25,098 nucleotides of DNA, from IMG/VR virus record IMGVR_UViG_3300003937_000019, positions 1 to 25,098 of that record; one strand, written 5' to 3'. Shown one piece after another: positions 2,819 through 23,149 of the stretch (the stretch's first letter is position 1; the number at the start of each line of letters is the position of its first letter). The notes under the pieces are model-generated. The model was not told where the DNA came from and did no database searches. It saw only the letters and a list, made by a program, of their open reading frames with translations. Made by a program: the position numbers and the translations under genes. The stretch comes from a virus.

Positions 2819-4705
2819 ATGTCTGATGTTGCTTCAAAACTCAAAGTATCTGAATTAGATTTTGATACTATAAAAACTAATCTAAAAAGTTTTCTAAGTG
2901 ATCAAAATGAATTGTCTGACTACAATTTTGATGGGTCAGCTATGTCTGTTCTTTTAGATGTTCTTGCATATAATACTCATTACAATGCGTTTTATTTGAA
3001 TATGGTTGTAAATGAGATGTTTCTTGATACAGCGTCTATCCGGAATTCTGTAGTATCAAGAGCTAAACATCTTGGTTATACACCATTATCAGTTAGGGGC
3101 GCAAAGGCTTATGTTGATCTTACTATTACTCCAGCAGACACTCCTGCTACTATTGTTATTGAAAAAGATACTCAATTTTCTTCATCAATAAATGGTATCA
3201 GTTATATATTTTCTACATCTAATTCTACTACAGTCAATGTAAATTCTAATGGGATATACACCACAGCAAATGTAGAATTAACACAAGGTGTTCCCCTTAC
3301 TCATCGTTATACAGCAAATACCACAGACCCTGATCAAGCATTTCTATTACCAAATGCTAATACTGATACATCTACTTTGACAGTAAGAATAAAAACCTCA
3401 GCAACTTCTTCAAATCTTTATTCATATGATCTTGCCAATGATACAACAACAGTCAATTCTACAGCAAATGTATATTGGTTAGAAGAATCAGAAGATGGAA
3501 AATATGAGGTGGTATTTGGAGATGATGTCATCGGTAGAAAACCAATTTCTGGTAATATTGTATTACTTTCTTCATTGATCGCAGATGCTACAGAAACTAA
3601 TGGGGCAAGAATATTTGTTCCAGTTGATAGTGTTGGTGGTTATTCTAATGTAGCAATGACTACAAGAACAGTGGCATCTGGTGGATCAGAACGAGATACA
3701 ATTTCTAAAATTAAGTTTAATGCTCCAAGAAATTATCAAGCACAGAATAGAGCAGTAACTATTAGTGATTATATAAGAATTTTACAAAGAGATTATCCTG
3801 CTGCTGAATCAGTTATTGCTTGGGGTGGAGAAACAAGTGATCCACCCGTTTATGGAAAAGTATATATTGCGGTAAAACCCGCAGCTGGACTTACTCTTTC
3901 TACTGCGACAAAAGACTATATTAAGAATACAGTTCTTGGAAAGAGAAATGTAGTTTCCATTACTCCAGAAATTCAAGATCCAGATTATATGTATGTGACG
4001 GTAGATTCAACTGTTAAGTATGATTCAACAATGACTACAAAATCTGCAGATACAATTAAGGCATCAATTTCAAATACAGTATACAATTATGGTGTAGATA
4101 ATCTTCAGAATTTTGCGAATGAATTTAGATATTCCCCTATGGTCAAAAAGATTGATGAAACTGAACCAGCTATTGAGAGCAGTTTGACAACGATAAAACT
4201 TAAACGAACCTTTACTCCAACTTTGGCGACTGCATTGTCATATACCTTAAATTATTCTAATGAACTTTTTGAAATTGCGGGATCTGCATCTGTTTCTAGT
4301 ACACAATTTTCACATCTTGACGATAATGGAGTACTTAGAACTGGATGTGCCTTACAAGACTCTAATGGAGTGATGCAAATTTTTAGGACTGTTGGTGCAG
4401 ATAGGGTTACTGTTGCAAACAATGTTGGAACTGTAACATATGGTACTGGAAAATTGGCACTTACATCCTTTGCTCCAGTAGTTATTACTGATGGTACAGC
4501 AAATGTAGCAATAACAGTTACTTTAGCATCTAGTGATATTACACCAGTTAGGGATCAGATTCTTCTTATTGCAAATTCTGATATTAAACTTGCTATGGTT
4601 GATACTGCTGGTACTGGAACAGATACTTCTGTAAGTTCTACTACTGCTAGTGGTTCTACTACTGGAGGTTCAGCGGGAAGTGGTGGTGCAGGGAGTAGCT
4701 ACTAA
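2819..4705 (+). CDS. 6: Baseplate wedge protein gp6
   Basis: A 628-aa protein matching the size of T4 gp6 (660 aa) and directly following gp25, as in marine T4-like phages. gp6 dimers join neighbouring wedges into the inner baseplate ring. The N-terminus has the family signature: LKVSELDFDTIKTNLKSFL, then DGSAMSVLLDVLAYNTHYNA and MVVNEMFLDTASIRNSVVSR (residues ~40-80). The 'LLDVLAYNTHYNAFY' and 'FLDTA..R.SVVSRA..LGY' strings are the most conserved parts of gp6. Later segments also fit: YEVVFGDDVIGRKP, and RDTISKIKFNAPRNYQAQNR followed by AVTISDYIRILQRDYP (the baseplate-J-like region). The last ~30 residues are Gly/Ser/Thr-rich and probably disordered. The stop codon overlaps the next start (TAATG), with GGGAG at 4691-4695 serving the downstream gene. 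Confidence 0.94.
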   Translation: MSDVASKLKVSELDFDTIKTNLKSFLSDQNELSDYNFDGSAMSVLLDVLAYNTHYNAFYLNMVVNEMFLDTASIRNSVVSRAKHLGYTPLSVRGAKAYVDLTITPADTPATIVIEKDTQFSSSINGISYIFSTSNSTTVNVNSNGIYTTANVELTQGVPLTHRYTANTTDPDQAFLLPNANTDTSTLTVRIKTSATSSNLYSYDLANDTTTVNSTANVYWLEESEDGKYEVVFGDDVIGRKPISGNIVLLSSLIADATETNGARIFVPVDSVGGYSNVAMTTRTVASGGSERDTISKIKFNAPRNYQAQNRAVTISDYIRILQRDYPAAESVIAWGGETSDPPVYGKVYIAVKPAAGLTLSTATKDYIKNTVLGKRNVVSITPEIQDPDYMYVTVDSTVKYDSTMTTKSADTIKASISNTVYNYGVDNLQNFANEFRYSPMVKKIDETEPAIESSLTTIKLKRTFTPTLATALSYTLNYSNELFEIAGSASVSSTQFSHLDDNGVLRTGCALQDSNGVMQIFRTVGADRVTVANNVGTVTYGTGKLALTSFAPVVITDGTANVAITVTLASSDITPVRDQILLIANSDIKLAMVDTAGTGTDTSVSSTTASGSTTGGSAGSGGAGSSY

Positions 4706-7700
4706 TGCAGACTGACGGCGGAGTTCTTTATACTCAAATAGAAGGTCAACTTCCTTCCTTCATTCAGACTAATCATAGTAAATTTACTAAGTTTGTCGAG
4801 AAGTATTATGAATTTCTAGAGCTCAATCTTCTTACCTTTACTGAAGTAAATCTAAATGAAGACAAGCCGATACAAGAAAGCGCTGATGTAACTTATACAG
4901 TTTCAGTTACTACAGGTAATAATGATTTTAGTGCTAACACTAACAAATTTTATCTTGATGGTGCTGTTTCTCCTGATCTCACAATAGACCCTACCAAGAA
5001 GACTATTTTTGACCAAGGTGATATTTCACTTCTTACTCATTATTTAAGAATATCTGATACTCCGGATGGGGTTTGGGGAGTTGGTGGAGAAGAAAATGCT
5101 AATACTGAAGTAACATATTTTTCTGGATCACAAGAAGTTTTGTTTCAAGATGAAGCAGGAAATCAATTTGTGTCAGAAGATGGATTATATGATTTTGTAT
5201 CAGAACTAGATGATGTAGCAAGAACCATCATTGAACCAAATCCAGACAACGCAGGAAAAACTTTTTATTACTATTGTAACACACATTCTGGGATGGGTGG
5301 TACTATTGTTTTTTCTGATATATCTTCTTATATTTCTCTTGAAAATGGAAATACTGAATCAGCTAATGTAAGTACTGATTATATTGATTATGAAAATCCA
5401 AATAGACAGGGTGAACAATTCCTAAGTGGTGAAACACTTCTTGGTGCTAACTCTGGTGCACAAGGAGTTGTTAGAGGTAAGTACTCCACTACACAAGCAT
5501 ATGTTCAAGAAACTAATAATGGTTCATTTCAGGTTGGTGAAACAATTACTGGATTGGAATCTAGAGTTTCTGCTAATGTTAGTTCTTATTCTAGACAACC
5601 TATCAATGCATCCCGAAATGTTAAAGCTTTTCAAGATGTTGATAAAGCACCAGTAGGATTTGTTGAACTTTTTCGTAAGGAGTTTTTACAAGGACTTCCT
5701 ACTGATATGCTTTCTAGGAAGCAGGATGCTCTTAAACGTATTAAAGATTTTTATAGAGCAAAGGGAAATGAAGATTCTTTTAGGTATATTTTTAGACTAC
5801 TCTATGCAAAAGAAAATATAACTTTTTATTATCCTGGTACTGATATTTTGCGATTATCTGATGGTAGATGGACACTTGACAAATCAGTTAAGATAGCAAC
5901 TTCTCTTGCTAATAATATTGGAGCTTTTGTCGGAAGAAAAATAGTTGGTGAAGTTTCTAATGTAACAGCACTTGTAGAAAGATCTGAGAGTTATCAAATA
6001 GGTGCTACAGGTGTTACTGAATTGTATATATCAGGCATTGATGCTAATAATGCAGTTGGGGGATATTCAACGTTTAAGGTTGATGAACTTCTTACAACAA
6101 CTACAGCTGATGATGATGGAAATTATGGGTCTGCGAATACTACTGGAGTTCTTTCTGGTGTAACCATTGATGCTGGTGGGTCGAACTATCTTGTAGGTGA
6201 TGATGTTTTAGTTTCTGGTGGAGGTGGTTCTGAGGCGGCAGCTAAAGTTGCATCAATATCTGATGCTACAATTAGTCAATTTGATCTTATTGATGCTGGA
6301 GATGGGTATACAGTAGGTGATACAGTCTCTTTTGTGAATGAGGGAACTGGTGGAACTGGTGGTGCGGCGCGTGTTAATTCTATTATCCCTACTTTTACTA
6401 CTGTACATATATCAGACATTATTAACACTTTTAAAGATAATAAAATTGATGCTGCAGCATATTCAGCACCGTGGGCAGGATATACTCGAAATAATCATAT
6501 TACTTCAAATTCTACAACTACATTTGATGTTGGTTATGATGGATTATCAGGTTCAGCGCCAAAAGTAGGTGATTTAATAATATCATTTCAGCATCCCCAA
6601 ATGCTTCTTGAAAGTGGAGAAGGAAATATTGGTTTTGAGACAAATTCAGCAAATCTTGGAAGCTTGGGAATTGGAACAGCTGACCGCGTATTGACGGAAA
6701 ATACTACTGGAGTAACAGATGCAAATGGATTTGAAACTATTGCGTCTTATACTCCGGATAGATCTATTTTTGCAACAGTTATTGCAGCAACTGGTTCAAC
6801 TGTTACATATGCCCAAGGATCAGTAATTACTTCATCTTTAACAGGAGAAGTTACTATAAGAGGATTTAGTGATAATGATGTAGTAACTATCTTTGATCTC
6901 ACAAAAAAAGCAGATGGTACAGCAATCACTTCTACTGGAAATGGGGCGGCTTTTTATGCGACTGGTGCAACTTTTAACATTAATGGAACCCCAACCTCTA
7001 ATACAGAAACGGCAGCAACATCTGGAATGGCATCTGTAACAGATATTCAATTAGGTGCTATTCGTGGTATACAAATTCTTTCTTCTGGTCAAGGTTATGA
7101 ATCCATTCCACAAGTTTCAGTCGCAAATACTATTACAGAATCTTACAAAGCAGATGTTTCAAAAACTGGTGCTAATTCTGTTTTTGTTAAACTTGCGAGT
7201 GCTACAGCAAATCTGTTCACTGCTAATACAAGAATTGAAAATGATGCACAAACGGCAGTTGGATTTGTTTTAGATTATATTGACAAACCTACAACTACAC
7301 AATTAGCTACTGGTGGTAGTGTAACTTTGGTGGCTACTGGTAATACTCATCTACGTGTTCAGATGACTACAGCAAATAGTTTTGCGGCTGAGGAAACTTT
7401 AACTATCTATAAAAATGAGGCAGGTGGAGCTCCAATAGGAGTTGGAGATTTTACTACTGCTAATATTGAAGTTTCTTCTGAAACAACCGGAACTTTTACT
7501 CAAGCAATTCATGGATATTCAGCGGGAGAGAAAGTTGTAATAACAAATGTAACTGGGCAGGATGATAATGTTTTTAATAATACTTATACAATTGCTACAG
7601 TTCCTACTACAAATACTTATACTGTTACTCTTTCTAGTGCTCCAACTAGACAATCTGTAAATAATGCTACAATCAGAAAAGTAGTTACCGCAAATACTTC

Positions 7701-10700
7701 TTCGACTAATACTGTCTTTGCGAATACTGGAATACCTGGAAATAATGCAACTATTTCTATTGCATCGATCGCGATTGGTGCTATTGAATCTCTTACAATA
7801 ACCAATTTTGGCGCGAGTTATACTACGGCACCAACTCTAGATGCTACTGGTTCAGGAGATGGAAATGCAACTCTTTCTGCTCAACTTGGTGCTCTGGCAG
7901 AATATGCAGGATATTTTGATGGTAATTATGGTCTATTAAGCACTACAAATAAATTCCAAGACAACTATTATTATCAAGATTTTTCATATGTTATTAAAAC
8001 AGATGTTGATGTAAAAACATACCGTGATAAAATTCTGAATTTGGTACATCCAGCTGGAATGTTTCTATTTGGAGAAATTGCTATTACTTCAGACTCTTCT
8101 GCGAGAATGTTTGATAATGCTACAAGGAATGCAGCATCTACTATTGCTAATACACAACATGGAATTGATGTTCCTTTATATCAACATCATGATATTAAAA
8201 TTCTTGGATCTTCAAATCTTGTGCATAGTATTGCAGAAAGTATGCATAAAACTATATTATTTCCTCCCAATGCATTAAGAGCTATAGATGCGACTGTAGA
8301 AAGTCCGCACACTGATTTTGAATTGATTATGGAACGGAATATAGATGGAATAGCTTTTGAAGAACATGGTGATGCTTTTATACATGAAGGTGTTGGGGAA
8401 TTTCTTTTAGAAAATGATACTGGTGGTAGAGATAGAATTATAAGTGAGACTGTAGATTATATTTTGAATGAAGATGGTACAGTAATAGTACATGAACTTA
8501 AAGATGATACCATCCAGCTGGTTATGGAGCAAGGTGGTTATTATATAGTAGAAGTTGCAATACTTCAATCTGAGTCAGGATATACCTTAGTTGAAGAACA
8601 ATATGGTGCTCGATTTGAGAGTGAGGCGGGGGAAGGCGGACGAAGATTTACTGTAGCACATTCAGCGTCTTCTCTTGGAGGACTTGCTGAAGGTACTACG
8701 TATATGAGGGCGGAAGTTTCTACTGGTGGTGGAATACCTGTTTCTACAGCTGATGTTGGTAATCGACTTGCTTATTTTCAACTAGAATATACTGGTCAGT
8801 CACCCATAAGAATAATGCAAGAGCAAGATGATCCTTCTTATATCTTGAATGAAAATACTGATTTTCAAATTATTCAAGAAGAGGATTTTGGTAGCATTTC
8901 TCTTGAATCAAGTAAGACAGATTTAATCACACTTGAAGATGGTACAGGGGTAATTGATTTAGAGGGTGATGGTGGTTATATTCTTATAGATCAAGACAAT
9001 GCTCTTTCACAAAATCGTATTCTATATGAAGAAGAAAAAATTTCATATCATGTTGTTAATTCTCATCCTCAAGATGAATTTTATATTACTGCAGAGAATA
9101 ATGGAGATTTTTATTTTATCAGACAAGAGGGAATTAGTTCGGCAGATTATGGTGATTTTATATTCCTTGAAGATGGGCGTGTCACGGCTGACTCAATAGA
9201 TGGTGGAAGACTTTTTGGATTTGAGGCTTCAGATGAAAGAGATTATATTACTCTTGAAAGATCTGATTGGGTAAGTGATACTACTATGAAGGGTGAAGAA
9301 ACCATTCCCTTTGGTTATTCACTTCCAATAATACAAATGCCATATGCTGAAACTGGATCTGTCAAGATTGATTTCGGCCCTGCTTATGATCTTTTACTTG
9401 AGGATGGTAGTTATCTAATTCTTGAAGATCCTAATGCACAAGCATATCCAACTTATCTTGCATTTGAAAACACTATGCAAGAAGAAATATCTAAGGATTA
9501 TGTAGTTACAGTTTCTACTGGTACTGCTAATTTAGCAGACATGATTGGGCTAGAAGATGGCACAGGAGTTATAGAGATTGAAGGTGGTTTAGATAAGATT
9601 CTTTCTGAGGCGGGCGGCGATGTAATGCTTGATGTGAGAAGAGATCCAATTGCTTTTGAAATCACACCTAAAGTCACTGTATCAGCAGTAACTTCAGATC
9701 TTATCCTTGAGGATGGTTTTGGTAGTGTGGTACTTGAAGATTCTGAATATACTATGGATCTTTCTAGAAGTATTATTAGACTTGAAGAAGAATTGCTTCC
9801 TTTTGTTTCTCTCACTTCTGGTTCATCTCAATTTCAACATGCTGCTACATGGGGTAGAATAGATGAATACACAATACTTGGAAGTTTAATTTCTGCACAA
9901 GTTGGAGGTAAGGAAGAATTTGTTGCATTTGAATCAGTAGATATAGCACAAGCTGGTGTAGTTCTTCTTGAAGATGATACTGGAAAAATGATTACAGAAA
10001 GATCGGTTATTCCTTCCTTTCCAGATGTTCAACCATTAGAAATAAACATTCCACTATCATCAACATTGGATCAAGCTCCTGGGGATGAAGTTGCACTTGA
10101 AGATGGTTCTGGTGCGGTTAAACTTGAGGGCGATTATATTGGTCTTGAAGATGGTACTGGTGGAATTGCATTAAATCATACTTATGGAAGATTGACAGAG
10201 GAAGATTTTGGTAGACTTGCTACAGAAAGAAGAAGACTTCTAAATGAAATGAATTGGGCAAGGGCTGAATCTGATGGTGCAGTATCTAATTATCTTTATG
10301 AAGCACGGGGTGAATTACAACTCACTGGTGGAGAAGAATATGAACTCTTAGCAGAGAATGGAGATAAGTTTGTAACACAATCTGTTGAAACCTTCCTTTC
10401 AGTTTCTGCTTTCACTACTGAATTGGGAGAGTATTTGGTTCAGGAGTCAGATCAGTCTTCAAGGATAATAGGGGAATTTTCAGCAGATATAGATCAAACC
10501 GCAAAAATACTCTCAGCTGATTATGGAAGAAAAAATGAGGTTATTGGAACAAATACTTCCTTTGAGATAGATTTCGCTTCTCCCCTAACCTTAGAAGATT
10601 ATGAAGATCATTTGTATAGTGCATCTGGGGGTGGAACAATACTTCTTGAAAGAGTAACCTCACAAGATTATTTACTTGTTCTTGAGAATTCTAATGACAG

Positions 10701-11817
10701 AATATATGATTCATTTATTTTAGAAACTAATACTACAGGAGGTCCTGGCAGAGTATCATCTGAAGAAACAATTCAGAATGAGACAGCAAGATTAGTCTAT
10801 CATGATCTTTTAGATTTGGTAACAGAAGAAGACAATATTTTGACAGAAGAATTGGATAATATTCTGTTTGAGGATCATTTAATAGTTCCAACAGATGTGA
10901 GCTCATTTCTTGCAGAGAATAATGATGATTTTATTCTTGAGCATGATGTGCGGAATAATTATGCGGCTCAATTGTTAGGATATGGAATTGAGAATGTTGT
11001 ACAAGAATTTAGAATAAGTGATTTAGTGGCAGATATAGGACTAGAATTTGATGGAGATAAGGGAGAATTGCCTGGTAGTATTTTGATGGAAAGATATACT
11101 CCACATAATACACTTGATGGTCAAATAGTTGTAGGAGCGAATACTTATGTGAAATCTTGGAGTGATGCATTACTTGTTCAATCATCAACTACTGTTAGTC
11201 TTGTTGATGGTGTTGCTTTCCCATATGGTGTAGAGGGTGGAACTTTAAGATATGCAAATGGAACTGTTACTGATATTACAAATCTTAATAATAATATGAC
11301 TCAACTTACAGTTGGTAATTCAGCGACAGTTGATGATCCTGGACAAACTTTTAGGATCTATTATGGTAGTGATGAGGCTGTACCAGTAGACACACCAAGA
11401 AAAATGAAATGTGAGATTGGAACAACAGATACCAATGATGCTGGAAGAGAATATCAATTTATTATTAATGATTGGGTGGGATTGACAATACAATCATTAC
11501 ATGAGCGACATGGAAATGATATTGTATTTGAGGATGGAGAAAGAATGCTTATTGAAGATGGAGAAATAACTCAAACAGAAAATGCTATGCTCCTTGAGGA
11601 TGATACTGGGAAATTAGGATATGAAGGTGATAATAACTTGTTGTTTGAAGATATGCATTATAATGAAAAAATGCTTATACATGATGCAGAAAGATTTAGA
11701 ATCAAAGAAATTGCTAATAACACTAGCATGATTATGTCATCAACAGAAACGGATGTCCAGACCCCGAGGTCTGATGTAACTTTCTTTATAGAGCGAGAAG
11801 GGAGAATAACTTCTTGA
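4705..11817 (+). CDS. 7: Giant baseplate wedge protein gp7-like, with cupredoxin-like insert and LEDG-repeat extension
   Basis: A 2370-aa protein in the gp7 slot between gp6 and gp8; T4 gp7 is 1032 aa. Residues ~12-40 (LPSFIQTNHSKFTKFVEKYY) resemble the marine T4-like gp7 N-terminus. Residues ~80-203 form a cupredoxin-like module. A SGAQG/FQVGETITG beta module follows. The best family signature is residues 318-389: GFVELFRKEFLQGLP, ALKRIKDFYRAKGNEDSFR and TFYYPGTDILRLSDGRW. Residues ~480-1070 are Gly/Thr/Asn-rich beta segments with several GxGY..GD motifs. A second conserved block (YQDFSYVIKT, YRDKILNLVHPAGMFLFGEI) ends near residue 1125. Beyond ~1200 the chain is a long acidic region of degenerate LEDGTG-type repeats with no counterpart in T4 gp7. 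The frame is unbroken for 7.1 kb. The start overlaps the gp6 stop by one base. The gp7 call rests on position plus the two conserved blocks; the extension's role is unknown, possibly a peripheral baseplate or fibre-docking surface. Confidence 0.85.
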   Translation: MQTDGGVLYTQIEGQLPSFIQTNHSKFTKFVEKYYEFLELNLLTFTEVNLNEDKPIQESADVTYTVSVTTGNNDFSANTNKFYLDGAVSPDLTIDPTKKTIFDQGDISLLTHYLRISDTPDGVWGVGGEENANTEVTYFSGSQEVLFQDEAGNQFVSEDGLYDFVSELDDVARTIIEPNPDNAGKTFYYYCNTHSGMGGTIVFSDISSYISLENGNTESANVSTDYIDYENPNRQGEQFLSGETLLGANSGAQGVVRGKYSTTQAYVQETNNGSFQVGETITGLESRVSANVSSYSRQPINASRNVKAFQDVDKAPVGFVELFRKEFLQGLPTDMLSRKQDALKRIKDFYRAKGNEDSFRYIFRLLYAKENITFYYPGTDILRLSDGRWTLDKSVKIATSLANNIGAFVGRKIVGEVSNVTALVERSESYQIGATGVTELYISGIDANNAVGGYSTFKVDELLTTTTADDDGNYGSANTTGVLSGVTIDAGGSNYLVGDDVLVSGGGGSEAAAKVASISDATISQFDLIDAGDGYTVGDTVSFVNEGTGGTGGAARVNSIIPTFTTVHISDIINTFKDNKIDAAAYSAPWAGYTRNNHITSNSTTTFDVGYDGLSGSAPKVGDLIISFQHPQMLLESGEGNIGFETNSANLGSLGIGTADRVLTENTTGVTDANGFETIASYTPDRSIFATVIAATGSTVTYAQGSVITSSLTGEVTIRGFSDNDVVTIFDLTKKADGTAITSTGNGAAFYATGATFNINGTPTSNTETAATSGMASVTDIQLGAIRGIQILSSGQGYESIPQVSVANTITESYKADVSKTGANSVFVKLASATANLFTANTRIENDAQTAVGFVLDYIDKPTTTQLATGGSVTLVATGNTHLRVQMTTANSFAAEETLTIYKNEAGGAPIGVGDFTTANIEVSSETTGTFTQAIHGYSAGEKVVITNVTGQDDNVFNNTYTIATVPTTNTYTVTLSSAPTRQSVNNATIRKVVTANTSSTNTVFANTGIPGNNATISIASIAIGAIESLTITNFGASYTTAPTLDATGSGDGNATLSAQLGALAEYAGYFDGNYGLLSTTNKFQDNYYYQDFSYVIKTDVDVKTYRDKILNLVHPAGMFLFGEIAITSDSSARMFDNATRNAASTIANTQHGIDVPLYQHHDIKILGSSNLVHSIAESMHKTILFPPNALRAIDATVESPHTDFELIMERNIDGIAFEEHGDAFIHEGVGEFLLENDTGGRDRIISETVDYILNEDGTVIVHELKDDTIQLVMEQGGYYIVEVAILQSESGYTLVEEQYGARFESEAGEGGRRFTVAHSASSLGGLAEGTTYMRAEVSTGGGIPVSTADVGNRLAYFQLEYTGQSPIRIMQEQDDPSYILNENTDFQIIQEEDFGSISLESSKTDLITLEDGTGVIDLEGDGGYILIDQDNALSQNRILYEEEKISYHVVNSHPQDEFYITAENNGDFYFIRQEGISSADYGDFIFLEDGRVTADSIDGGRLFGFEASDERDYITLERSDWVSDTTMKGEETIPFGYSLPIIQMPYAETGSVKIDFGPAYDLLLEDGSYLILEDPNAQAYPTYLAFENTMQEEISKDYVVTVSTGTANLADMIGLEDGTGVIEIEGGLDKILSEAGGDVMLDVRRDPIAFEITPKVTVSAVTSDLILEDGFGSVVLEDSEYTMDLSRSIIRLEEELLPFVSLTSGSSQFQHAATWGRIDEYTILGSLISAQVGGKEEFVAFESVDIAQAGVVLLEDDTGKMITERSVIPSFPDVQPLEINIPLSSTLDQAPGDEVALEDGSGAVKLEGDYIGLEDGTGGIALNHTYGRLTEEDFGRLATERRRLLNEMNWARAESDGAVSNYLYEARGELQLTGGEEYELLAENGDKFVTQSVETFLSVSAFTTELGEYLVQESDQSSRIIGEFSADIDQTAKILSADYGRKNEVIGTNTSFEIDFASPLTLEDYEDHLYSASGGGTILLERVTSQDYLLVLENSNDRIYDSFILETNTTGGPGRVSSEETIQNETARLVYHDLLDLVTEEDNILTEELDNILFEDHLIVPTDVSSFLAENNDDFILEHDVRNNYAAQLLGYGIENVVQEFRISDLVADIGLEFDGDKGELPGSILMERYTPHNTLDGQIVVGANTYVKSWSDALLVQSSTTVSLVDGVAFPYGVEGGTLRYANGTVTDITNLNNNMTQLTVGNSATVDDPGQTFRIYYGSDEAVPVDTPRKMKCEIGTTDTNDAGREYQFIINDWVGLTIQSLHERHGNDIVFEDGERMLIEDGEITQTENAMLLEDDTGKLGYEGDNNLLFEDMHYNEKMLIHDAERFRIKEIANNTSMIMSSTETDVQTPRSDVTFFIEREGRITS
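4942..5313 (+). other. Cupredoxin-like module inside gp7 (putative type-1 copper site residues)
   Basis: Residues ~80-203 of the gp7-like protein read as a plastocyanin-type beta sandwich. An opening NKFYLDGAVSPDLTIDP and TIFDQGDISLLTHYLRIS place His112 (codon 5038-5040) in a position like the first His ligand of plastocyanin (H-x-x-x-F). The closing FYYYCNTHSGMGGTIVF gives Cys191 (5275-5277), His194 (5284-5286) and Met197 (5293-5295). The spacing is C-x2-H-x2-M; plastocyanin has C-x2-H-x4-M, so the axial Met assignment is uncertain. Copper binding is inferred from the motif only. Confidence 0.6.
8317..11610 (+). repeat. Degenerate LEDGTG-type protein repeats in the gp7 C-terminal extension
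   Basis: The C-terminal ~1,100 residues of gp7 repeat a loose pattern of hydrophobic-hydrophobic-E-D/N-G/D-x-G-x-hydrophobic. Clearest copies: LEDGTG at 8932-8949, LEDGSY at 9397-9414, LEDGTG at 9550-9567, LEDGFG at 9706-9723, LEDDTG at 9967-9984, LEDGSG at 10096-10113, LEDGTG at 10144-10161 and LEDDTG at 11593-11610. More diverged units (FEDGER, IEDGEI, LNEDGT, LENDTG, FLAENND) lie between them. Spacing is irregular. The copies use different synonymous codons, so the repeat is conserved at protein level, not as recent DNA duplication. Confidence 0.8.
11758..11773 (+). other. GC-rich hairpin near the 3' end of gp7
   Basis: CAGACC-CCGA-GGTCTG is a perfect 6-bp stem with a CCGA tetraloop in an otherwise AT-rich stretch, 44 nt before the gp7 stop. 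No U-tract follows, so it is not a canonical intrinsic terminator. It might be an mRNA stability or processing element, or chance. Confidence 0.3.
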
Positions 11818-13647: not shown

Positions 13648-15882
13648 ATGGCGCTTTCTACAGACTTTAATGTTGATCCCTATTATGATGATTATGATGA
13701 GACGAAGAATTTTCATAGGATATTATTTAAGCCAGGATATGCGGTTCAAGCCAGGGAAGTTACACAGCTCCAGACTATTCTACAGAAACAAGTAGAAAGG
13801 CATGGTGAACACCTTTTTAAGAACGGTAGTATAGTTCTAGGATGTGAACTTAATTATGATAATGAAGCAAAATCTCTGAAACTTGAAACTCAATATTCAG
13901 GTGTTGATGTATCTGTTTCAGATTTTGCAAATACAATCATTAATGGCGGAACTTCTAATGCAAGAGGTAGGATAGTATCTTCTGAAGCGGGAACGGCTTC
14001 AGAGCAGCCTACACTTATGTTTCATTATATGAATAATAATACATTTCAAGATGGTGAAACAATTACAGTTGTTGGTTCTTCTACATCTGCTAACACAATA
14101 AGTGCGGCTGGTGTTTCTGGTCTTGCTGATGCTACGGCAAATAGTTCAGTATGTAGTATTAATTCTGGAGTTTTTTATGTTGGGGGGTTCTTTGTTATGC
14201 TGGAAGCTCAGACATTAACTCTTGAAAAATATTCTTCTGCTCCTTCTTACCGTGTTGGAATACAAGTTACTGAAACTATTACAACTTCTGATGCAGATAA
14301 TTCTCTACTTGACCCCGCCCAAGGTGCGTATAACTATGCCGCTCAGGGTGCGAATAGATACAAAATTGCATTATCTCTCAGTAAGAAAGCATTTTCCGCT
14401 GCTGATCCAGTAGAAGCGGCAGCTGATGAAAACTTTTATCAACTTTTAAAAGTTAGCGCTGGGAAAAAACTCCAAGAAGTAAAATATCCAGTTTATACAG
14501 AATTGGAAAAAGTCCTTGCTCGAAGAACTTCTGATGAATCTGGTGATTATACAGTTACGCCATTTAATCTTCAACAAACTACTCATCAAGGAATTACAGG
14601 CACTACAGCAAATTCTGGAACAGGTCTAGCATCTAAATTGACAGGGGTTGGAACTCTTTTTCAACAAGAACTTGCGGTGGGAGATATTGTATATTTAAGT
14701 GGAGCTCCTACAACAACAGCAATAGTTGATACAATTACATCAAATACTGTAGCGACTCTTGATGGGTCTTTAGCTACTGATACTTCTGGTCAGAGTATAC
14801 ATTTTGATAGTAAGTATTCTGCTGGACTTGATCCTGGTAAGGCATATGTTAAGGGATATGAATATGAGAATATTGCAACCAAGTATGTCACAGTGGATAA
14901 GGGGCGAGATACCGCAAATGTAACTACATTTGGATTGAATACTTCCTTTGGAAATAAACTTCATATTTCTCAGGCTAATGGATATTTTGATGTTAGCGCT
15001 CATCAAATTTTAGATTTACATTCTGTTCCTTCTGCAAACGTAACAACGGGAACTGATACTGTTGATTCTATACACGGAACAACTAACTTAACATATCAAT
15101 CAAGAACTAAGATAGGAACAGCTCGCATTAGAGACATGGATTGGTATGCTGCATCTGGAAATACAGCTAATGATTCTCATTCGCATTCAGATTATCTTAT
15201 GTATCTTTATGATGTAAGATCATCAAATAATAAAACCGGAGTTGTTGGCGATACAGTTAGTTATCTTGGGCCTGCTGGTGAATTACATAGTTCTAGGGGT
15301 TCTGCTGGATATTCAAATTCTACAGCTAATACATTTGAAATGCAGAGAGACATAGTAAAAATTGGTGTTTCTACTACGGGTCATGTAAATTCCACTAATT
15401 ATCGAATTGGAGACGGGACAACTGCTAATACAACACATTTTCAAAAACTTGCACAAATTAATAATGCTTATAATGAAGCAGTAGTTAAGATTACAACTCC
15501 AATCTTAAATAAAATGATTGCGATAGATTCTGTCGCAGTAGGAAATTTTAATATAGCTTTAGAATATGGAGGACCTCCCAATTTTGATGTTGAGGGTGGT
15601 GGTGTTATCTTGTTAGAAGAACAAACATCAGCTAATGGTGTTGCAAATGTTACATATACCAGAAATGTTGTCACTTCTTTTGGAAATTCAACCGTTACTA
15701 CTCTTCAATTAGACTCAAATATGACTGAGCGGACATATTATTCTGCGGGTGGTCCTGGTATTGTGGCTTCAACGGTCGCTTCACCGGGCGTGCCAGCATG
15801 GACGGCTCAATATGCTGCGGATGATTATAGTCATTTATATCCTGATGGAGATACAAATATTCAACTACTGGTGAAACATTAG
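13648..15882 (+). CDS. DUF4815-type wedge/fibre-connector protein, N-terminal part (frame broken at ~15860)
   Basis: A 744-codon frame that begins with a clear DUF4815-like N-terminus. DFNVDPYYDDYDETKNFHRI and RILFKPGYAVQAREVTQLQT, then LFKNGSIVLGCEL (residues 24-68), match the large structural proteins that follow gp8 in marine T4-like phages. A second family block, DPGKAYVKGYEYENIATKYV then TVDKGRDT, is at residues ~394-423. AGGA at 13635-13638 precedes ATG 13648. The frame ends abruptly after DGDTNIQLLVKH at 15882, whereas the related region continues at once in the -1 frame. One missing base between 15846 and 15882 would restore a single gene, 13648-20438, of about 2263 aa. The slot and domain suggest the role of T4 gp9/gp10: a virion protein linking the wedge to tail fibres. 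That role is inferred. Confidence 0.85.
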   Translation: MALSTDFNVDPYYDDYDETKNFHRILFKPGYAVQAREVTQLQTILQKQVERHGEHLFKNGSIVLGCELNYDNEAKSLKLETQYSGVDVSVSDFANTIINGGTSNARGRIVSSEAGTASEQPTLMFHYMNNNTFQDGETITVVGSSTSANTISAAGVSGLADATANSSVCSINSGVFYVGGFFVMLEAQTLTLEKYSSAPSYRVGIQVTETITTSDADNSLLDPAQGAYNYAAQGANRYKIALSLSKKAFSAADPVEAAADENFYQLLKVSAGKKLQEVKYPVYTELEKVLARRTSDESGDYTVTPFNLQQTTHQGITGTTANSGTGLASKLTGVGTLFQQELAVGDIVYLSGAPTTTAIVDTITSNTVATLDGSLATDTSGQSIHFDSKYSAGLDPGKAYVKGYEYENIATKYVTVDKGRDTANVTTFGLNTSFGNKLHISQANGYFDVSAHQILDLHSVPSANVTTGTDTVDSIHGTTNLTYQSRTKIGTARIRDMDWYAASGNTANDSHSHSDYLMYLYDVRSSNNKTGVVGDTVSYLGPAGELHSSRGSAGYSNSTANTFEMQRDIVKIGVSTTGHVNSTNYRIGDGTTANTTHFQKLAQINNAYNEAVVKITTPILNKMIAIDSVAVGNFNIALEYGGPPNFDVEGGGVILLEEQTSANGVANVTYTRNVVTSFGNSTVTTLQLDSNMTERTYYSAGGPGIVASTVASPGVPAWTAQYAADDYSHLYPDGDTNIQLLVKH
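15846..15882 (+). other. Frame discontinuity (-1) inside the DUF4815-type gene
   Basis: The upstream frame is open to TAG 15880-15882; the downstream frame opens right after TGA 15843-15845. In the overlap the downstream frame reads YSTTGETLANGQVSITPTD, clearly coding and fibre-like. One extra A in the CAAC at about 15862-15865 would give NIQTTGETLANGQ and fuse the frames. No canonical X XXY YYZ slippery heptamer is visible. Confidence 0.8.
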
Positions 15883-18800
15883 CAAATGGTCAAGTTTCAA
15901 TTACTCCTACAGATAGTGGAGCGTTTGGAATATCTGGAAGTCCTATTACAGACGCACAAGCAGAAGAAAATTTTCTTGTGGTTGTTACTAAAAGTAGAAG
16001 TGATTCCTCTTCTGATACTCATACTGCAGTAAGTAATGGTCAATATTTAAGTTTTGCAAATACTGATGGAGAAAGTAGATCCATAGCAGTATCAAGTGGT
16101 TCTGCGGTAATTCAAACAAGATGTACAAGTGCAGTAAACGTTGCTGTTACATATACAGCAACCAAAACTACTGCTGGAAATATAAGAACTAAAACAATTA
16201 CTCAAGGAAATGGAAATGTTGCATATAATGTAACAACTATTGGTGGATCTCCAAGTGCTAATACTCTTAATACTCATAAAGGGGTAGGTCAATATTTCGT
16301 TGATGCTCCAACGAGAACTGTTGGAGAAAAGATTGAGCTTCCGGTTACTGATGTGTTTAATATTGTTAAAATTGTAGATTCTGGATCTCTTTCTATTGAC
16401 ATTTCAAATACAATGTTGAGTGCGACCGCTAATAATATTACCTCTGCATATGCACTTGATACTGGTATGCGAGATAATTTTTATGGTCATTCCTCAGTAT
16501 ATCTTAAACCAGGATATGCTCCACCTAAAGGTAAAATTGTAATTATATTTGATAGATTTGCTCATGCTGGTAAAGGATATTTTACTGTTAGTTCATATCC
16601 AATTACAGGCTCAGACCGAGAATTCAATAATGGAGTTGATACTTTTGGATATGGAGATGTCCCAACTTATACTAGTCCAACTACTGGTGAATCTTTTAAA
16701 TTATCAGATTGTGTAGATTTTCGACCCTATGTTGCGGAAAATACTAATGATGGTTCAGCTGCTGTCACATATGATATAGCAACAGTTACAGGTGCGGTTA
16801 CTGCTGGTACTATTCTTATTCCAGATTCAGACACAACATCTACTCTTGATTATTCATATTATCTTCCAAGAATTGATAAATTAACTTTAACAAGAGATAG
16901 AAAATTTGAAGTTATTAAAGGAAAGGCGGGTGCTAATCCAATTGCTCCACCTGATGATGATGATTCTATGACTCTTTATACTTTGAAGATTCCTGCTTAT
17001 ACTTTTGCTTTAACAGATATTGAAAGTAGATATATTGATAATAAGCGCTTCACAATGAGAGATATAGGAAAACTTGAGAAGAGGATAGAAAGACTTGAAT
17101 ACTTTACATCTCTTAATATTTTAGAGAAAGAGACTGCAGCAACGGATATTACTTCTGATGGTTCTAAAGATTCTTTATTTAACTCTACTGGATCAAGATT
17201 TAAAAATGGAATTTTGGTAGATCCATTTGCTGGACATTCTATTGGAGATGTAACCTTAGAAGATTACAATGCCTCAATACATTTTGCAACAAAACGACTA
17301 AGGCCTCCATTCTATTATGATAATTATAGATTTACTTATGACTCTTCTACTAGTAATAATACGGTTAAGACAGGAGATTTGATAACTCTTCCATATACGA
17401 ATAGTGTTTTTATTGAACAGCCCTTAAACAGTCATGAGAAATCTCCAAATCCATTTAATATTGTGAATTTTATTGGATCAATGAAGCTTGATCCACCTTC
17501 TGATACATGGTTTGATGATACTACTCGACCAGATGTTACTACAAATCTTGAGGGACATCATGATAACTGGACATTAAGTTCAGGTGAAGGTAGAAAGGGA
17601 TTTGGCGCACAATGGGATGATTGGTCTGTAAACTGGACAGGTAAACAAGTTAATCCTGAACCTAATACAGCAATTGCTAATTCTGGAAGCGTTGCTACTA
17701 ATACAAGAAGTACTAAACTTATTAATCAAAGTAAATCTAAATTTGGTATCCAATCAAATGATCCAGTAGAATCAATAATTAAAACGGTTGGTAATCGCAA
17801 ACTTGATATGAGTGTGGTTCCATATGTACGTTCTCAAAGAATATCTTTTTCTTCTAAAGGATTAAAACCTCTTTCTAATGTATATGTTTGGATTGGTAGT
17901 ACAGATATGAGTGCTAATACAGAACCAGCTAAGAAATTACAACTTGCTGGTGCTAATGGTGCATTTAAAGATGGTGAAGTTATTAAAGATTCTGCAAATA
18001 ATAGAGCTATTTTGAGATTAGCTTCTAATACAGTTGCTAATGTGGCTTCACTTTTCATTACAGATATTGATGGAAATTCAAGTGCTACTTTAGGATCTCC
18101 AGTTACTTTACAGAATAATAGAATATCAAATTCCGGAGTTGGATTCGCAGCTGCAAATGTAGTTACTGGTTTAACTTCTTCTGCTAATGGTACTATTGGA
18201 TCAATTGTAGCTAATACTAGAGGTATTCTTGTTAATAGTGTGTCTAGAATGCAAACTAATGATTATGGAGAAATTTCTGGTGATATTGATATTCCTGCAG
18301 GAACTTTTAGAACAGGCGATAGAATTGTAAGAATTACAGATCAAGCAAATAATGAATTAGCATCTACTACAACCGTTTCTGAATCAACCTTTAAGGCTAA
18401 AGGACTATTACAGAATAGAGAAAAACTTTTAATTTCTACAAGAGAACCTATTCTTCGTAGAGAATCTATTGGTGATGAAGAAATTGTTACTGATACTACT
18501 TCTCGACAAACTTCTCAAACCAATTGGATTAATCCAATGTCACAGTCTATTTTTATAGATCCAAGTACATATCCAATGGGAATGTTTCTTAGGGATGTAA
18601 CATTGTTCTTTAGTGCTAAAGATACTTGGCTTCCAATAACAGTACAAATTCGGCCAATGATAAATGGGTTTCCAAGTAGTTCTATAATATTACCATTCTC
18701 AGAAGTAACATTGAATCCAGATGAAATTCAAACATCGTCTGTCGCAAATGCAGCATCTAGTAACACTACTACTCATACAACATTTACATTTGAGTCTCCA

Positions 18801-20438
18801 GTATATTTGACTCCAGAAGAATATGCAATTGTTATAACAACTAATAGTCCAGAATATAAATTGTTTACTGGAGATATAGGATTAGATTCAAGTGGAACTA
18901 CAAGAAAAATTTCTAAGCAGCCATTTGTTGGTTCATTTTTTAATCCTCAAAATTCTGGAGAATGGAAAGCTAATCCAACTACTATGTTAATGTTCCGTTC
19001 AAATCGTTATGATTTTACTGGAACTGGTGGATCTAATAATTATGCATATTTTATTTCTCATGCAAATGGAGCAGCAGGAAATACGGCAAATGTTGAATAT
19101 CAAACATTTAAGACTACTACTTCAACTATTCAATTTAGTAATACAACTTCAGATTTTACTTATAATTCATATGATACTGGTAATACAGCTCAAGGATTTG
19201 TAGCATTTAGTCCAGATCAAAGTATTAATTTGACAGGTACACGTCAAATGACAATGAGTACTAATGGAATGTTCCTTGTTAATTGTACCATGTCAACATC
19301 AAATTCTCATATTTCTCCGGTCATAGACCTTGATAGAATGAGTGTGATTACTATTGAAAATAATGTTGACGATGCTGGAATTGCTGCAAATGATGTTGTT
19401 GTAACTACTGTTGGAGGTGGATATACAAATGTATCACCTTCTGCTTTTACAGCAGCAATATCAGCTCCAGATAGAGCAGGGGCAGTTACCGCAAATGCTA
19501 ATGTCCATATTGAAGTAACTCTTCCACAAACTGGTACTTTAGAATCAGGAAATTCTAATTATACTGTTGATACTACAAACTCTGGACAATTTGTAATTGG
19601 AGAAGGTGTAATAGTAGTCGCAAATAATACAAGTGGAACTATATCATCAGATCCAGTAGCAACAGATAATGCAGCTGCTGGAATTGTTACTCATCAGACT
19701 TATGTAAATGGAAATACATCCGCGAATGTATCTACTATTACTATTAAAACTAGTGCAAATTGTTATGGTATATTTGCTAATGGAGTTACTATTCAGTCTA
19801 GTGCATTAGCACAAGATTCTGATCATACTAATTCTGGTTATTCTGTTAATCATTCAAATACTTTTACAAAGATAGGAACTGTTACTGGTTCAGTATCTAA
19901 TGTGGTTCCTTCTTTAGCTAATGGATTGATATCTACAGCGGGGTCTGGTTATTTGACTACCCCAACTGTTACAATCTCTGATCCAAATGTTTCTCAACAA
20001 GCGGCTGCCGCTGTAGCAACTGTAGTTGGAGAAAATTCTACTTCTGGTGGAAATGTTAATGCAAAATATATTTCACGAAGAGTAACATTAGAGGATGGGT
20101 TTGATGCTTCAGATATAAAAGTTATATTAAATGCATATAAACCATTAGGTACAAATCTTTATCTATATTATAAAGTAAAAGCAGAAGATGATCAAACAGA
20201 TTTTGATGATAAAAGTTATGTGCTTATGAATCAAGAAACTGATTCATCAATAGTTTCTGGAAGTGAAGAAGATGTTAAGGAGTTCATTTATAAAACAGTA
20301 AATGAAAAAATTACTTATACATCTGATAATGTTGAATATGATAAGTTCAAAACTTTTGCTGTGAAAATGGTTCTTACTTCTAATAATGCTGTCATAGTTC
20401 CAAAGGTACGGGATATGAGAGTAATTGCATTGGATTAA
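15846..20438 (+). CDS. DUF4815-type wedge/fibre-connector protein, C-terminal part
   Basis: A 1530-codon frame that continues the preceding gene. The first start-like codon is GTG 15978, with no Shine-Dalgarno and coding sequence before it, so an independent start is unlikely. Family landmarks in order: CVDFRPYVAENTNDG (~16709-16750); YYLPRIDKLTLTRDRKFEV (~16857-16910); DIGKLEKRIERLEYFTSLNI (17061-17120), a conserved helix; LFFSAKDTWLPITVQIRP (~18604-18655) and SPVYLTPEEYAIVITTNSP (~18795-18855), a beta domain shared by these large proteins; and a C-terminus FKTFAVKMVLTSNNAVIVPK followed by VRDMRVIALD. GGGYTNVSPS and GSGYLTTPTVTISDP beta units at ~19410-20000 echo gp7 and gp8. The stop is one base before the next ATG. 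The role is presumably the outer wedge/fibre attachment layer of the virion. The match to the family is good; the exact T4 equivalent is uncertain. Confidence 0.85.
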   Translation, partial: WRYKYSTTGETLANGQVSITPTDSGAFGISGSPITDAQAEENFLVVVTKSRSDSSSDTHTAVSNGQYLSFANTDGESRSIAVSSGSAVIQTRCTSAVNVAVTYTATKTTAGNIRTKTITQGNGNVAYNVTTIGGSPSANTLNTHKGVGQYFVDAPTRTVGEKIELPVTDVFNIVKIVDSGSLSIDISNTMLSATANNITSAYALDTGMRDNFYGHSSVYLKPGYAPPKGKIVIIFDRFAHAGKGYFTVSSYPITGSDREFNNGVDTFGYGDVPTYTSPTTGESFKLSDCVDFRPYVAENTNDGSAAVTYDIATVTGAVTAGTILIPDSDTTSTLDYSYYLPRIDKLTLTRDRKFEVIKGKAGANPIAPPDDDDSMTLYTLKIPAYTFALTDIESRYIDNKRFTMRDIGKLEKRIERLEYFTSLNILEKETAATDITSDGSKDSLFNSTGSRFKNGILVDPFAGHSIGDVTLEDYNASIHFATKRLRPPFYYDNYRFTYDSSTSNNTVKTGDLITLPYTNSVFIEQPLNSHEKSPNPFNIVNFIGSMKLDPPSDTWFDDTTRPDVTTNLEGHHDNWTLSSGEGRKGFGAQWDDWSVNWTGKQVNPEPNTAIANSGSVATNTRSTKLINQSKSKFGIQSNDPVESIIKTVGNRKLDMSVVPYVRSQRISFSSKGLKPLSNVYVWIGSTDMSANTEPAKKLQLAGANGAFKDGEVIKDSANNRAILRLASNTVANVASLFITDIDGNSSATLGSPVTLQNNRISNSGVGFAAANVVTGLTSSANGTIGSIVANTRGILVNSVSRMQTNDYGEISGDIDIPAGTFRTGDRIVRITDQANNELASTTTVSESTFKAKGLLQNREKLLISTREPILRRESIGDEEIVTDTTSRQTSQTNWINPMSQSIFIDPSTYPMGMFLRDVTLFFSAKDTWLPITVQIRPMINGFPSSSIILPFSEVTLNPDEIQTSSVANAASSNTTTHTTFTFESPVYLTPEEYAIVITTNSPEYKLFTGDIGLDSSGTTRKISKQPFVGSFFNPQNSGEWKANPTTMLMFRSNRYDFTGTGGSNNYAYFISHANGAAGNTANVEYQTFKTTTSTIQFSNTTSDFTYNSYDTGNTAQGFVAFSPDQSINLTGTRQMTMSTNGMFLVNCTMSTSNSHISPVIDLDRMSVITIENNVDDAGIAANDVVVTTVGGGYTNVSPSAFTAAISAPDRAGAVTANANVHIEVTLPQTGTLESGNSNYTVDTTNSGQFVIGEGVIVVANNTSGTISSDPVATDNAAAGIVTHQTYVNGNTSANVSTITIKTSANCYGIFANGVTIQSSALAQDSDHTNSGYSVNHSNTFTKIGTVTGSVSNVVPSLANGLISTAGSGYLTTPTVTISDPNVSQQAAAAVATVVGENSTSGGNVNAKYISRRVTLEDGFDASDIKVILNAYKPLGTNLYLYYKVKAEDDQTDFDDKSYVLMNQETDSSIVSGSEEDVKEFIYKTVNEKITYTSDNVEYDKFKTFAVKMVLTSNNAVIVPKVRDMRVIALD

Positions 20439-20679: not shown

Positions 20680-21975
20680 ATGTCCGCTAACGTCGCACTA
20701 TCAGATACCTTTGATCAATGGAGGGTGAAAACTAATGAATTGATGGCTATGACCCAATCGGGCGGTATGGCCAATTTTGTCAAATTAACTGATACCACAA
20801 ATGCAACAAGTAATACTACTGGTTCTATCATTACTTCCGGTGGAGCAGGGATTGCAAAAAGTGTGGTTATTGGAGAACATCTCAATGTTCATGGAAACAT
20901 TCATGCAAATGGCCAAATATCCGCGGATGGTAATTTAACTCTTGGGAGTGATGATACCGATTCAGTAGATTTTAATGCGGATATTGCTTCTCACATTATA
21001 CCTAATGTAGATACCACTTACAATTTAGGTAATTCCACAATGTATTGGGCGAATGCCTATATCAATACAGTAGATCTTCAACAAGAATCAGCTGCGGGAA
21101 AACCAGGACTCAAAGTTACTGGAGCAGATGTTGATGCTAAGTTAGTAGAAATCATTGGAGCACAAACTACAAATGATATTCTATATGTTAATGCGTCAGC
21201 TTTGACTTCTGGAAATGCCTTTGTAATTAATCAAGATCAAAGTGATCCAACAACAAGAACTCTTGCTAAAATTATTCAAGACCATGTTGGTGCACTTGGA
21301 ACTACAGGATTATCTGTTCGAATGGATGCTGGAAGAGGGGTGTTTATTGATAGTAATCTAACCTCTGGAGATGCTACCTATGCTCTAGAAATAGATGCAG
21401 AACATACTACTACAAATACAGCAAAGATTGCATCTGCTTCTACAACTGGAACTATCCTCGATATTCAAGCTGAAGCAATTACTACAGGAAGAGGGATAAA
21501 CATTTATGATGATTCTGCGACTACTGGTTCTGCACTTTATATAGATTCAGATTCTTCTTCTACTGGTACTAGAAATACAGCAGCTATAATTCAAAATCAT
21601 GCATCTGCTACTGGTGCAACTGCTCTTCATGTTCAAAATGATAGTACTGGTTTTGGTATTGACATTAGAGGAGGTATTGGAACCGGAACCGCTGGTGCAG
21701 GTAAACTAAGATTATCTACCGCAGAAACCACTGTAGTTGATGCAGATGTTTTAGGAATGATTGAGTTTACGGCTCCATTGGAAGGAAGTGGTACTGATGC
21801 AATTTTGGTCGGAGCGACTATTCAAGCTGAAGCAGATGATACTTTTGCGGCGGACAACAATGCAACTGAATTGGTATTTAAAACTGCTGCGTCAGAAGCG
21901 GCAACGGAGAAGTTAAGAATTGCGAGTGACGGAAAAATCGGGATTGGAACACCTACTCCATTTGGTTTTAGGTAG
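20680..21975 (+). CDS. Tail fibre protein, N-terminal part (frame broken at ~21960)
   Basis: A 431-codon frame with the style of a trimeric phage fibre: beta-rich, Gly/Thr/Asn/Ala-rich, no Cys. After a short helical start (LSDTFDQWRVKTNELM) come the fibre signatures GAGIAKSVVIGEHLNVHGNI and SVDFNADIASHIIPNVDTTY followed by NLGNSTMYWANAYI (residues ~95-128), widespread in tail fibres of T4-like marine phages. The middle repeats units of about 40-50 residues with TTGTxLxIxxxx and TTGxGxxIYDDSA/YIDSDSS patterns. AAGGAG at 20665-20670 is 9 nt before ATG 20680. The frame stops after IGIGTPTPFGFR at 21975, but fibre sequence resumes in the +1 frame. Removing one base would give one gene, 20680-22771, of about 696 aa. 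The role is host recognition, by family inference. Confidence 0.85.
   Translation: MSANVALSDTFDQWRVKTNELMAMTQSGGMANFVKLTDTTNATSNTTGSIITSGGAGIAKSVVIGEHLNVHGNIHANGQISADGNLTLGSDDTDSVDFNADIASHIIPNVDTTYNLGNSTMYWANAYINTVDLQQESAAGKPGLKVTGADVDAKLVEIIGAQTTNDILYVNASALTSGNAFVINQDQSDPTTRTLAKIIQDHVGALGTTGLSVRMDAGRGVFIDSNLTSGDATYALEIDAEHTTTNTAKIASASTTGTILDIQAEAITTGRGINIYDDSATTGSALYIDSDSSSTGTRNTAAIIQNHASATGATALHVQNDSTGFGIDIRGGIGTGTAGAGKLRLSTAETTVVDADVLGMIEFTAPLEGSGTDAILVGATIQAEADDTFAADNNATELVFKTAASEAATEKLRIASDGKIGIGTPTPFGFR
21917..21975 (+). other. Frame discontinuity (+1) inside the tail fibre gene
   Basis: The upstream frame ends TTT GGT TTT AGG TAG (stop 21973-21975). The downstream frame opens after TAA 21914-21916 and reads VLGSTEVTATAAELNLIDGG, a classic fibre string. 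One T too many in CCATTTGG would explain it: CCATTGG gives PLVLGSTEV. A +1 slip at AGG-TAG is the alternative. Confidence 0.8.
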
Positions 21976-22771
21976 TACAGAAGTAACAGCAACTGCCGCT
22001 GAACTCAATCTAATAGATGGTGGAACTGCGAGAGGAACAGACGCAGTTGCAACGGGTGATGGTGTTTTGATCAATGATGGTGGCACAATGAAAATGACTA
22101 ATGTTGACACTCTTGATACATATTATGCTCAAACAACAAAAACTTTAACTAATAAAACACTTACTGCACCTACTCTGACAACTCCAGCACTAGGTACTCC
22201 TGCATCTGGAGTTATGACTAATATGACAGGAGCAGTCACCGCTTCAATAGTTGATAATGCGATCACACTTGCAAAAATGGCAGGTGGTACAGATGGTAAT
22301 ATAATTAGTTATGATGCTTCTGGTGATCCAGTAGCAGTTGCAACTGGTACTGATGGACAAGTATTAACTTCAACAGGAGCAGGTTCTCCTCCAGCTTTTG
22401 AAGATGCTGCAGGTGGTGTAGATCCTGCTGCTGAAACTACATTTACTGCTCAACAATACTTTAATGATCAAGCATTGACTTCTGGAACATCTATTTCATG
22501 GAATGCGAATACAGCTCAAGTTGCTTATCTATCTCTTGCTCATAATGCTACGATAGCTACTGCAACAAATCATAAAGCTGGTGGAGTTTATATAATGAGA
22601 GTGACACAAGCATCATCTCCTAAGACTCTTGCGTGGTCTACAGGTTATAAATGGCCGGGAAATACAGCACCAACAATGACCGCTACCGGAAGTGCGGTTG
22701 ACATTTTTACATTTACTTCAGATGGAACTTATATGTATGGGTCTTTTTCAGGCTCTCAGAACTTCACTTAA
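21917..22771 (+). CDS. Tail fibre protein, C-terminal part
   Basis: A 284-codon frame continuing the fibre. It has no usable start: the first start-like codon is TTG 21920, without a ribosome site and in non-homologous sequence, and the first ATG is at 22087. Motifs in order: STEVTATAAELNLIDGGTAR, a repeat unit common to fibres of marine T4-like phages; DTYYAQTTKTLTNKTL with APTLTTPALGTPASGVMTN, a Thr-rich beta repeat typical of phage fibre shafts; DGNIISYDASGDPVAVATG and GTDGQVLTSTGAGSPPAFED; then a globular C-terminal region (SPKTLAWSTGYKWPG, TFTSDGTYMYGSFSGSQNFT), the usual end of such fibres. The natural C-terminus argues that 22771 is the true gene end. The distal tip would contact the host surface; the receptor is unknown. 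Confidence 0.85.
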   Translation, partial: ELRVTEKSGLEHLLHLVLGSTEVTATAAELNLIDGGTARGTDAVATGDGVLINDGGTMKMTNVDTLDTYYAQTTKTLTNKTLTAPTLTTPALGTPASGVMTNMTGAVTASIVDNAITLAKMAGGTDGNIISYDASGDPVAVATGTDGQVLTSTGAGSPPAFEDAAGGVDPAAETTFTAQQYFNDQALTSGTSISWNANTAQVAYLSLAHNATIATATNHKAGGVYIMRVTQASSPKTLAWSTGYKWPGNTAPTMTATGSAVDIFTFTSDGTYMYGSFSGSQNFT

Positions 22772-22784
22772 CAGGTAGCAAAGA

Positions 22785-23149
22785 ATGAGTATACTTACAT
22801 ACCCTCTCGGATTTATTCAATTTATATGAGGAATGTAGGTAGTGGTGGTACTGATGAAGGAAATGCAGATACTACTGCATTGTATAGAGATCCAGCCGCT
22901 TGGTATCATATAGTATGGCAATGGAATACTCTTTCCAGTGTTGCATTAGACCGACAAAATCTTTTCGTAAATGGAGAAAGAGTTACTTCATGGGCACTCG
23001 CTCCTGACGATTCTGCTCAGGATATGGATACTCATTGGATGCAGGATGGTGAACGTCTTAATATTGGTAATATAGACACTAATGGAAGTTTGTCCAATTT
23101 TTATGATGGATTGATGACTGATATTTACTGTATTGATCACCGCCTATAA
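22785..23149 (+). pseudogene. Broken LamG-domain adhesin gene start (partial)
   Basis: A new gene appears to start at ATG 22785: MSILTYPLGFIQFI and then TGA. The opening is typical of marine-phage LamG adhesins as I recall them. In the -1 frame, open from 22772 to 23149, the sequence continues with the second half of a LamG/concanavalin-like domain: LYRDPAAWYHIVWQWNT (~22880), NLFVNGERV (~22960), and FYDGLMTDIYCIDHRL at the end. The usual first half of the LamG domain is missing, so there is both a frame change and an apparent internal deletion. The only ATG in the second frame (22826) has no ribosome site. The end at 23149 overlaps the next open frame. It could be a degraded or recombined adhesin, or an assembly artefact. 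Confidence 0.6.

Follow-up and report, generated by a model that had tools for sequence, protein, structure and literature searches.

A predicted cupredoxin-like module with a putative metal site recurs in virion proteins of marine phages

Amicyanin-type blue copper proteins (PF00127) are secreted electron carriers with a cupredoxin fold, in which the ligands follow one another in the order His...Cys-x2-His-x2-Met, C-x2-H-x2-M being the ligand-loop spacing of amicyanin. An Asn stands right after the first His, a second-shell feature typical of plastocyanin and amicyanin. In plastocyanin and pseudoazurin, the loop is C-x2-H-x4-M, and in rusticyanin, a soluble periplasmic electron carrier, the Cys/His/Met loop is longer. 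Loop exchange between such copper proteins has been described (PMC7480511). A cupredoxin domain attached to another protein is present at the N-terminus of the Cu nitrite reductase of Hyphomicrobium denitrificans, where it is an enzyme accessory domain. In virions, few metal sites are known to our knowledge, and the HxH segments of phage tail fibres have a fold that differs from the cupredoxin fold. The nearest published idea is that of iron in phage tail fibres, for which PMC11705849 cites the HxH iron sites of T4 gp37 and presents hypotheses on host contact for such segments (T4 gp37, R22Y). These also are metal sites in a tail, but their motif differs, as would their metal, from those of the phage cupredoxin domain described here, which has no HxH. 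Our literature search revealed no paper that connects cupredoxins to structural proteins of cyanophages or to the baseplates or tail fibres of phages.

The window analysed in this study, a stretch of 25,098 bases from an IMG/VR virus record, encodes a T4-like baseplate cluster with ORFs for a PAAR-like protein, a 640-aa protein, a gp25-like protein, gp6, a 2370-aa protein, gp8, and two DUF4815 proteins, where the PAAR-like and gp25-like ORFs are what we take them to be from their position in the cluster and general knowledge. Flanked by gp6 (phrog_219, E 5e-168) and gp8 (Pfam Phage-Gp8), the 2370-aa ORF occupies the place of gp7 in T4-like phages. At E 1.2e-38 it matched phrog_17744, the PHROG family 'baseplate wedge subunit', while its score against the Pfam model Baseplate_wedge (PF23786) was 25.6 bits, narrowly below the cut-off of 27, and no T4 gp7 chain was among its PDB sequence matches. 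The features assigned to this ORF are listed in Table 1.

Table 1. Features of the wedge-like protein and its cupredoxin-like module (positions in the window).
Feature	Position	Strand	Basis
Baseplate wedge-like protein, 2370 aa, cyanophage 'gp7'-type by position/homology, module host	4705..11817	+	PHROG/Pfam matches and gene order
Cupredoxin-like domain, aa ~59-210	4879..5334 (approx.)	+	Profile matches, AlphaFold2 models, PDB fold matches
His112, first (N-terminal) His, predicted metal ligand	5038..5040	+	Invariant in 34 copies; 47/48; aligned to first Copper-bind His
Cys191, predicted thiolate ligand, end of penultimate strand	5275..5277	+	Conservation and profile alignment
His194, predicted ligand, C-x2-H	5284..5286	+	Conservation and profile alignment
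Met197, predicted axial ligand, H-x2-M, amicyanin spacing	5293..5295	+	Conservation, profile alignment; 99/101 copies C-x2-H-x2-M
Loop insert, aa ~143-170, ~24 aa beyond compact orthologues, low pLDDT	5131..5214	+	Alignment with L008-L016
Second inserted module, aa 211-298 (GExxxGxxSG...VGETITG)	5335..5598	+	Also in L138-L140, which are without cupredoxin
Conserved wedge core, aa 299-417, query for homologues with and without module	5599..5955	+	Homologue search

The initial annotation had proposed a cupredoxin-like module with a copper site in this protein. The four ligand positions that it named, H112, C191, H194, and M197, are all exact in the translation of the 2370-aa ORF (THYLRIS starts at residue 111, YYYCNTHSGMGG at residue 188), but its interval started too late, since the first domain strand VTYTVSVTT already begins at aa ~61, and the domain is larger than proposed (aa ~59-210).

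AlphaFold2 modelling of the window domain resulted in a pLDDT of 69.6, the core of strands being confident and the insert disordered, and modelling of the compact orthologue L010 in a pLDDT of 91.5 and a pTM of 0.84. Both models, like their top PDB matches, displayed the Greek-key beta-sandwich of about eight strands that characterizes cupredoxins. Their leading Foldseek matches in the PDB were copper cupredoxins (bilirubin oxidase, rusticyanin at 13-22% identity, three-domain nitrite reductase, laccases), and an azurin with an amicyanin loop (2fta, CTPHPFM) was among those of the window model. Second-look alignment gave the highest Z values for the N-terminal cupredoxin of the H. denitrificans nitrite reductase (2dv6, 6tfo; about 15-20% identity), with 8.3 for the window model and 9.4 for the compact orthologue against 2dv6 (rmsd of 2.5 over 100 residues in the latter case), although a Z of 8-9 by itself is middling as fold evidence. 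In the window model, H112 immediately precedes a strand, C191 ends a strand, and M197 immediately precedes the last strand. This matches the arrangement in cupredoxins, where one His lies close to the beginning of a middle strand and Cys, His, and Met surround the last loop. Profile-profile alignment to bacterial Copper-bind proteins paired all four residues with known ligands (probability of 92% with the window-led alignment and 53% with the compact one). Based on the uniform match list, the ligands, and this alignment, the module is predicted to have a cupredoxin fold, in line with the initial proposal.

Searches of Pfam, NCBIfam, and PDB sequences with the domain recognised no cupredoxin family, and neither the window domain nor its compact relatives matched PF00127 Copper-bind at E<=1. 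The gp9-type copies described below likewise revealed no cupredoxin family in Pfam, NCBIfam, or the PDB, and only one weak sub-threshold match to an At5g54830-like domain. As far as sequences can tell, the relation to Copper-bind proteins is a distant one, visible only by profile-profile comparison. What the module shares with amicyanin-type proteins are the predicted fold, the ligand order, and the loop length given by C191, H194, and M197; in contrast to these proteins, it is part of a virion protein, and H112 is followed by Tyr (mostly Pro in the relatives) instead of Asn. The x2 spacing before the Met, present in the window and all complete copies, had at first been regarded as atypical with reference to plastocyanin. 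Since amicyanin has the same loop length, and 2fta with that loop was itself matched, the spacing is no anomaly.

Conservation was centred on the putative ligands. In an alignment of 34 diverse copies, no column was invariant apart from H112, Y189, C191, H194, and M197. When copies were restricted to those below 80% identity (48 non-redundant copies), the two His and the Cys were each present in 47 and the Met in all 48, and these four positions were the top four in conservation among 114 model positions, while outside them the copies diverged to 20-50% identity. The motif C-x2-H-x2-M was exact in 99 of the 101 unique copies. These counts have to be read with the collection in mind, as the viral relatives were gathered partly with DNA patterns containing the C and the H, whereas H112 and M197 lay outside those patterns; the pattern of a later scan of cellular contigs did contain the M. 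Among the copies from phage records, found free of patterns via tblastn, 13/14 possessed the complete set. Because the ligands are the best conserved positions, including the two outside the collecting patterns, the set is more than chance, and the type-1-like ligand set of the initial annotation is thus borne out: it is intact in the window and aligned with the Copper-bind ligands. Degenerate copies were found as well. Cyanophage PSS2 (L115, 392-730) harbors a stand-alone ORF (119 aa, or 112 aa as annotated) beside the tape measure gene. This relative with a cupredoxin fold no longer has H1, C, and H2, three of the four ligands. A second copy in S-RIM2 is without the C/H/M loop, so that the fold can evidently outlast the site.

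Using the core just downstream of the module (aa 299-417) as query, 80 wedge homologues were gathered. Every one of the 20 nearest, at 63% identity or more, carried the cupredoxin module, and the 60 more distant ones did not; in most of the latter, an N-terminal helix leads directly into the core, and some 45-85 residues precede the match. L138-L140 are intermediate: these three possess a module of the aa 211-298 type and no cupredoxin. Compared with its module-free homologues, the protein of the window thus carries an insertion, which agrees with the embedding that had been proposed. From this distribution, the module was either gained in one lineage or lost repeatedly, and judging from the homologues at hand, a single gain would be the simpler course.

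Orthologues L027, L040, L052, and L092 displayed longer, LEDG-type inserts at the position of the loop insert in the window. A long array of LEDGTG-like units makes up the C-terminus of the 2370-aa protein (window ~8452-11814, aa ~1250-2370), and such units also occur within the cupredoxin loop of orthologues L027, L031, L040, L052, L068, and L092. An origin of the window insert from the protein's own C-terminal array was unsupported, as 825/2000 shuffles scored as high; the longer insert of L027 does match the C-terminal array (0/1000 shuffles as high).

A first scan of viral contigs resulted in 13 orthologous loci, of which four, at 86% identity, share the loop insert, whereas the other nine, at 39-44%, do not have it. 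A profile scan retrieved 308 relatives in IMG/VR stretches. Via tblastn with a compact orthologue, the module was detected in 240 phage records, most of which belong to phages of Synechococcus and Prochlorococcus, others to phages of Pelagibacter and Methylophilales. Among named phages, gp9-type connectors carry it at their C-terminus. Wedge subunits contain it in S-SSM4 and ACG-2014d, tail fibres in Melnitz-3, Bellamy, and S-SCSM1, and structural proteins in S-TIM5. S-ShM2, like S-TIM5 a cultured cyanophage, is another carrier. One S-SCSM1 protein with the module has the label 'virion protein' in its record, and the virion proteome of this phage was established by mass spectrometry (PMC9602691). 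Searching the predicted structures of BFVD resulted in 68 matches at E<=0.001, including a gp14 neck protein. With copies in gp9-type, wedge, fibre, and neck-region proteins, the suspected mobility among virion genes of marine phages is supported. One phage ORF of 539 aa contains two tandem copies (L034, 4677-5369). Small 'beta-sandwich proteins' of pitho-/marseilleviruses (BFVD A0A481Z6J5, A0A481YVH3, A0A481Z7Q7, A0A481YY19) match the phage cupredoxin model at E values of ~2e-6 to 3e-5.

In named cellular contigs, 11 matches to the module were found, several of which resemble phage genes. Two others resemble bacterial surface proteins, namely L097, whose frame apparently also has a cadherin-like repeat, and L102, a repeat protein of 2768 aa. 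Closest on the cellular side to the gp9-type phage copies are L199 and L200, domains of marine Bacteroidetes in open frames of 1100-1300 aa of a cellular genome, with L199 aligning to those copies at 27-40% identity; both score over the PF00127 cut-off and share the C-x2-H-x2-M loop (YICSLHAGMVG). A mainly bacterial origin was rejected, the module being present in 1/100 genomes of the phylum of L097, namely in L097's own genome. As most matches in cellular contigs look phage-like, a cellular home is not established, and the module appears to be a mobile domain that recurs in virion proteins of marine phages and, in a few cases, in surface proteins of marine bacteria.

Based on these findings, we consider it fairly probable that the module is a mobile domain decorating the surface of marine virions, with a competent mononuclear metal site, probably for copper, and acts as a structural clip and/or in adhesion. 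On this reading, a mobile cupredoxin-fold module has been inserted into the N-terminal part of the T4-like wedge protein of a marine phage and would sit on the exterior of the baseplate, serving decoration or adhesion by analogy with Ig-like domains in other phages. The four residues of the predicted site would hold one metal ion, most likely copper, which might be taken up as Cu(I) inside the host or after lysis in seawater. The metal could then pin the last loop onto the sandwich and/or offer a metal-stabilised surface for host contact. Because of the fold, the full putative ligand set, and the recurrence in virion proteins, the particles of these phages may contain metal, copper being the probable one. 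A role in electron transfer is possible, though not required. Points against the decoration domain with a metal site are the low-confidence insert and mediocre model of the window copy, the Tyr after its first His (usually Pro in relatives) in place of the Asn typical of plastocyanin and amicyanin, the degenerate copies that keep the fold without the site, and the cytosolic assembly of T4-like phages, as the cytosol holds very little free copper. We regard as rather doubtful the stronger claim that marine T4-like phages bear functional type-1-like copper sites in baseplates and tail fibres, in many copies per particle, with the metal or its redox state serving host contact or tail stability.

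The same cytosol, reducing and poor in free copper, and the missing second-shell Asn of classical blue sites speak for a site whose metal in vivo is a different one (Zn(II), Cu(I) only, or some other ion), which would serve as a clip for structure or adhesion and never as a redox-active blue copper. Metal clips in phage tails have a precedent in the HxH iron sites of T4 gp37, as cited in PMC11705849. This alternative is possible, though not the one we expect, since Cys-His-His-Met with amicyanin spacing is the canonical copper set and the structural neighbours are copper proteins. That the fold was kept as a plain, metal-free spacer, with the four residues used for packing only, agrees with the ligand-free relatives in PSS2 and S-RIM2, but is unlikely given ligands that outrank all other positions in conservation while the remainder diverges, a loop length that is constant in 99 of 101 copies, and a lone Cys that would not persist for packing in so many contexts.

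An active part at host contact, either as a redox or copper sensor triggering baseplate rearrangement or as a copper counterpart of the 'Ferrojan Horse' that offers copper to a host surface receptor, would suit the baseplate, gp9-type, and fibre proteins in which the module resides, as these act at host contact, and has a precedent hypothesis for iron in PMC11705849. However, no redox partner, receptor, or conserved partner surface was found for the module, and most homologues of the same wedge protein are without it, which renders such a role improbable. That the module is instead some widespread type of beta-sandwich, Ig-like or otherwise, with C, H, and M clustered by chance is disfavoured and hardly credible: although Ig-like domains are frequent in phage virions and a few Fab and integrin chains stood far down the window model's Foldseek list, cupredoxins were the top and most abundant structural matches of both models, and profile alignment recovered all four ligands on which conservation is centred.

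The family of virion cupredoxin-like modules is real and apparently undescribed; its fold and its type of site are known, and what is new is the setting. It is compact and well predicted and spread through tail genes of marine phages, unseen by Pfam and NCBIfam. How much weight the finding carries hinges on whether metal is bound. If so, many structural proteins so far hypothetical would gain a biochemical property that can be tested, and the module would widen the discussion of phages as marine metal carriers from iron to copper.

Downstream of the wedge gene, two successive ORFs in different frames (window 13648-15882 and 15978-20438) match positions 60-200 and 312-568 of the DUF4815 profile and are probably one gene broken by a frameshift or an assembly error. 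Tail-fibre-like ORFs follow at window 20680-25098 (20680-21975, 21920-22771, 22826-23149, and 23308-end), likewise in different frames with small overlaps or gaps, possibly representing a frameshifted fibre gene; the last of them bears Laminin_G_3 domains.
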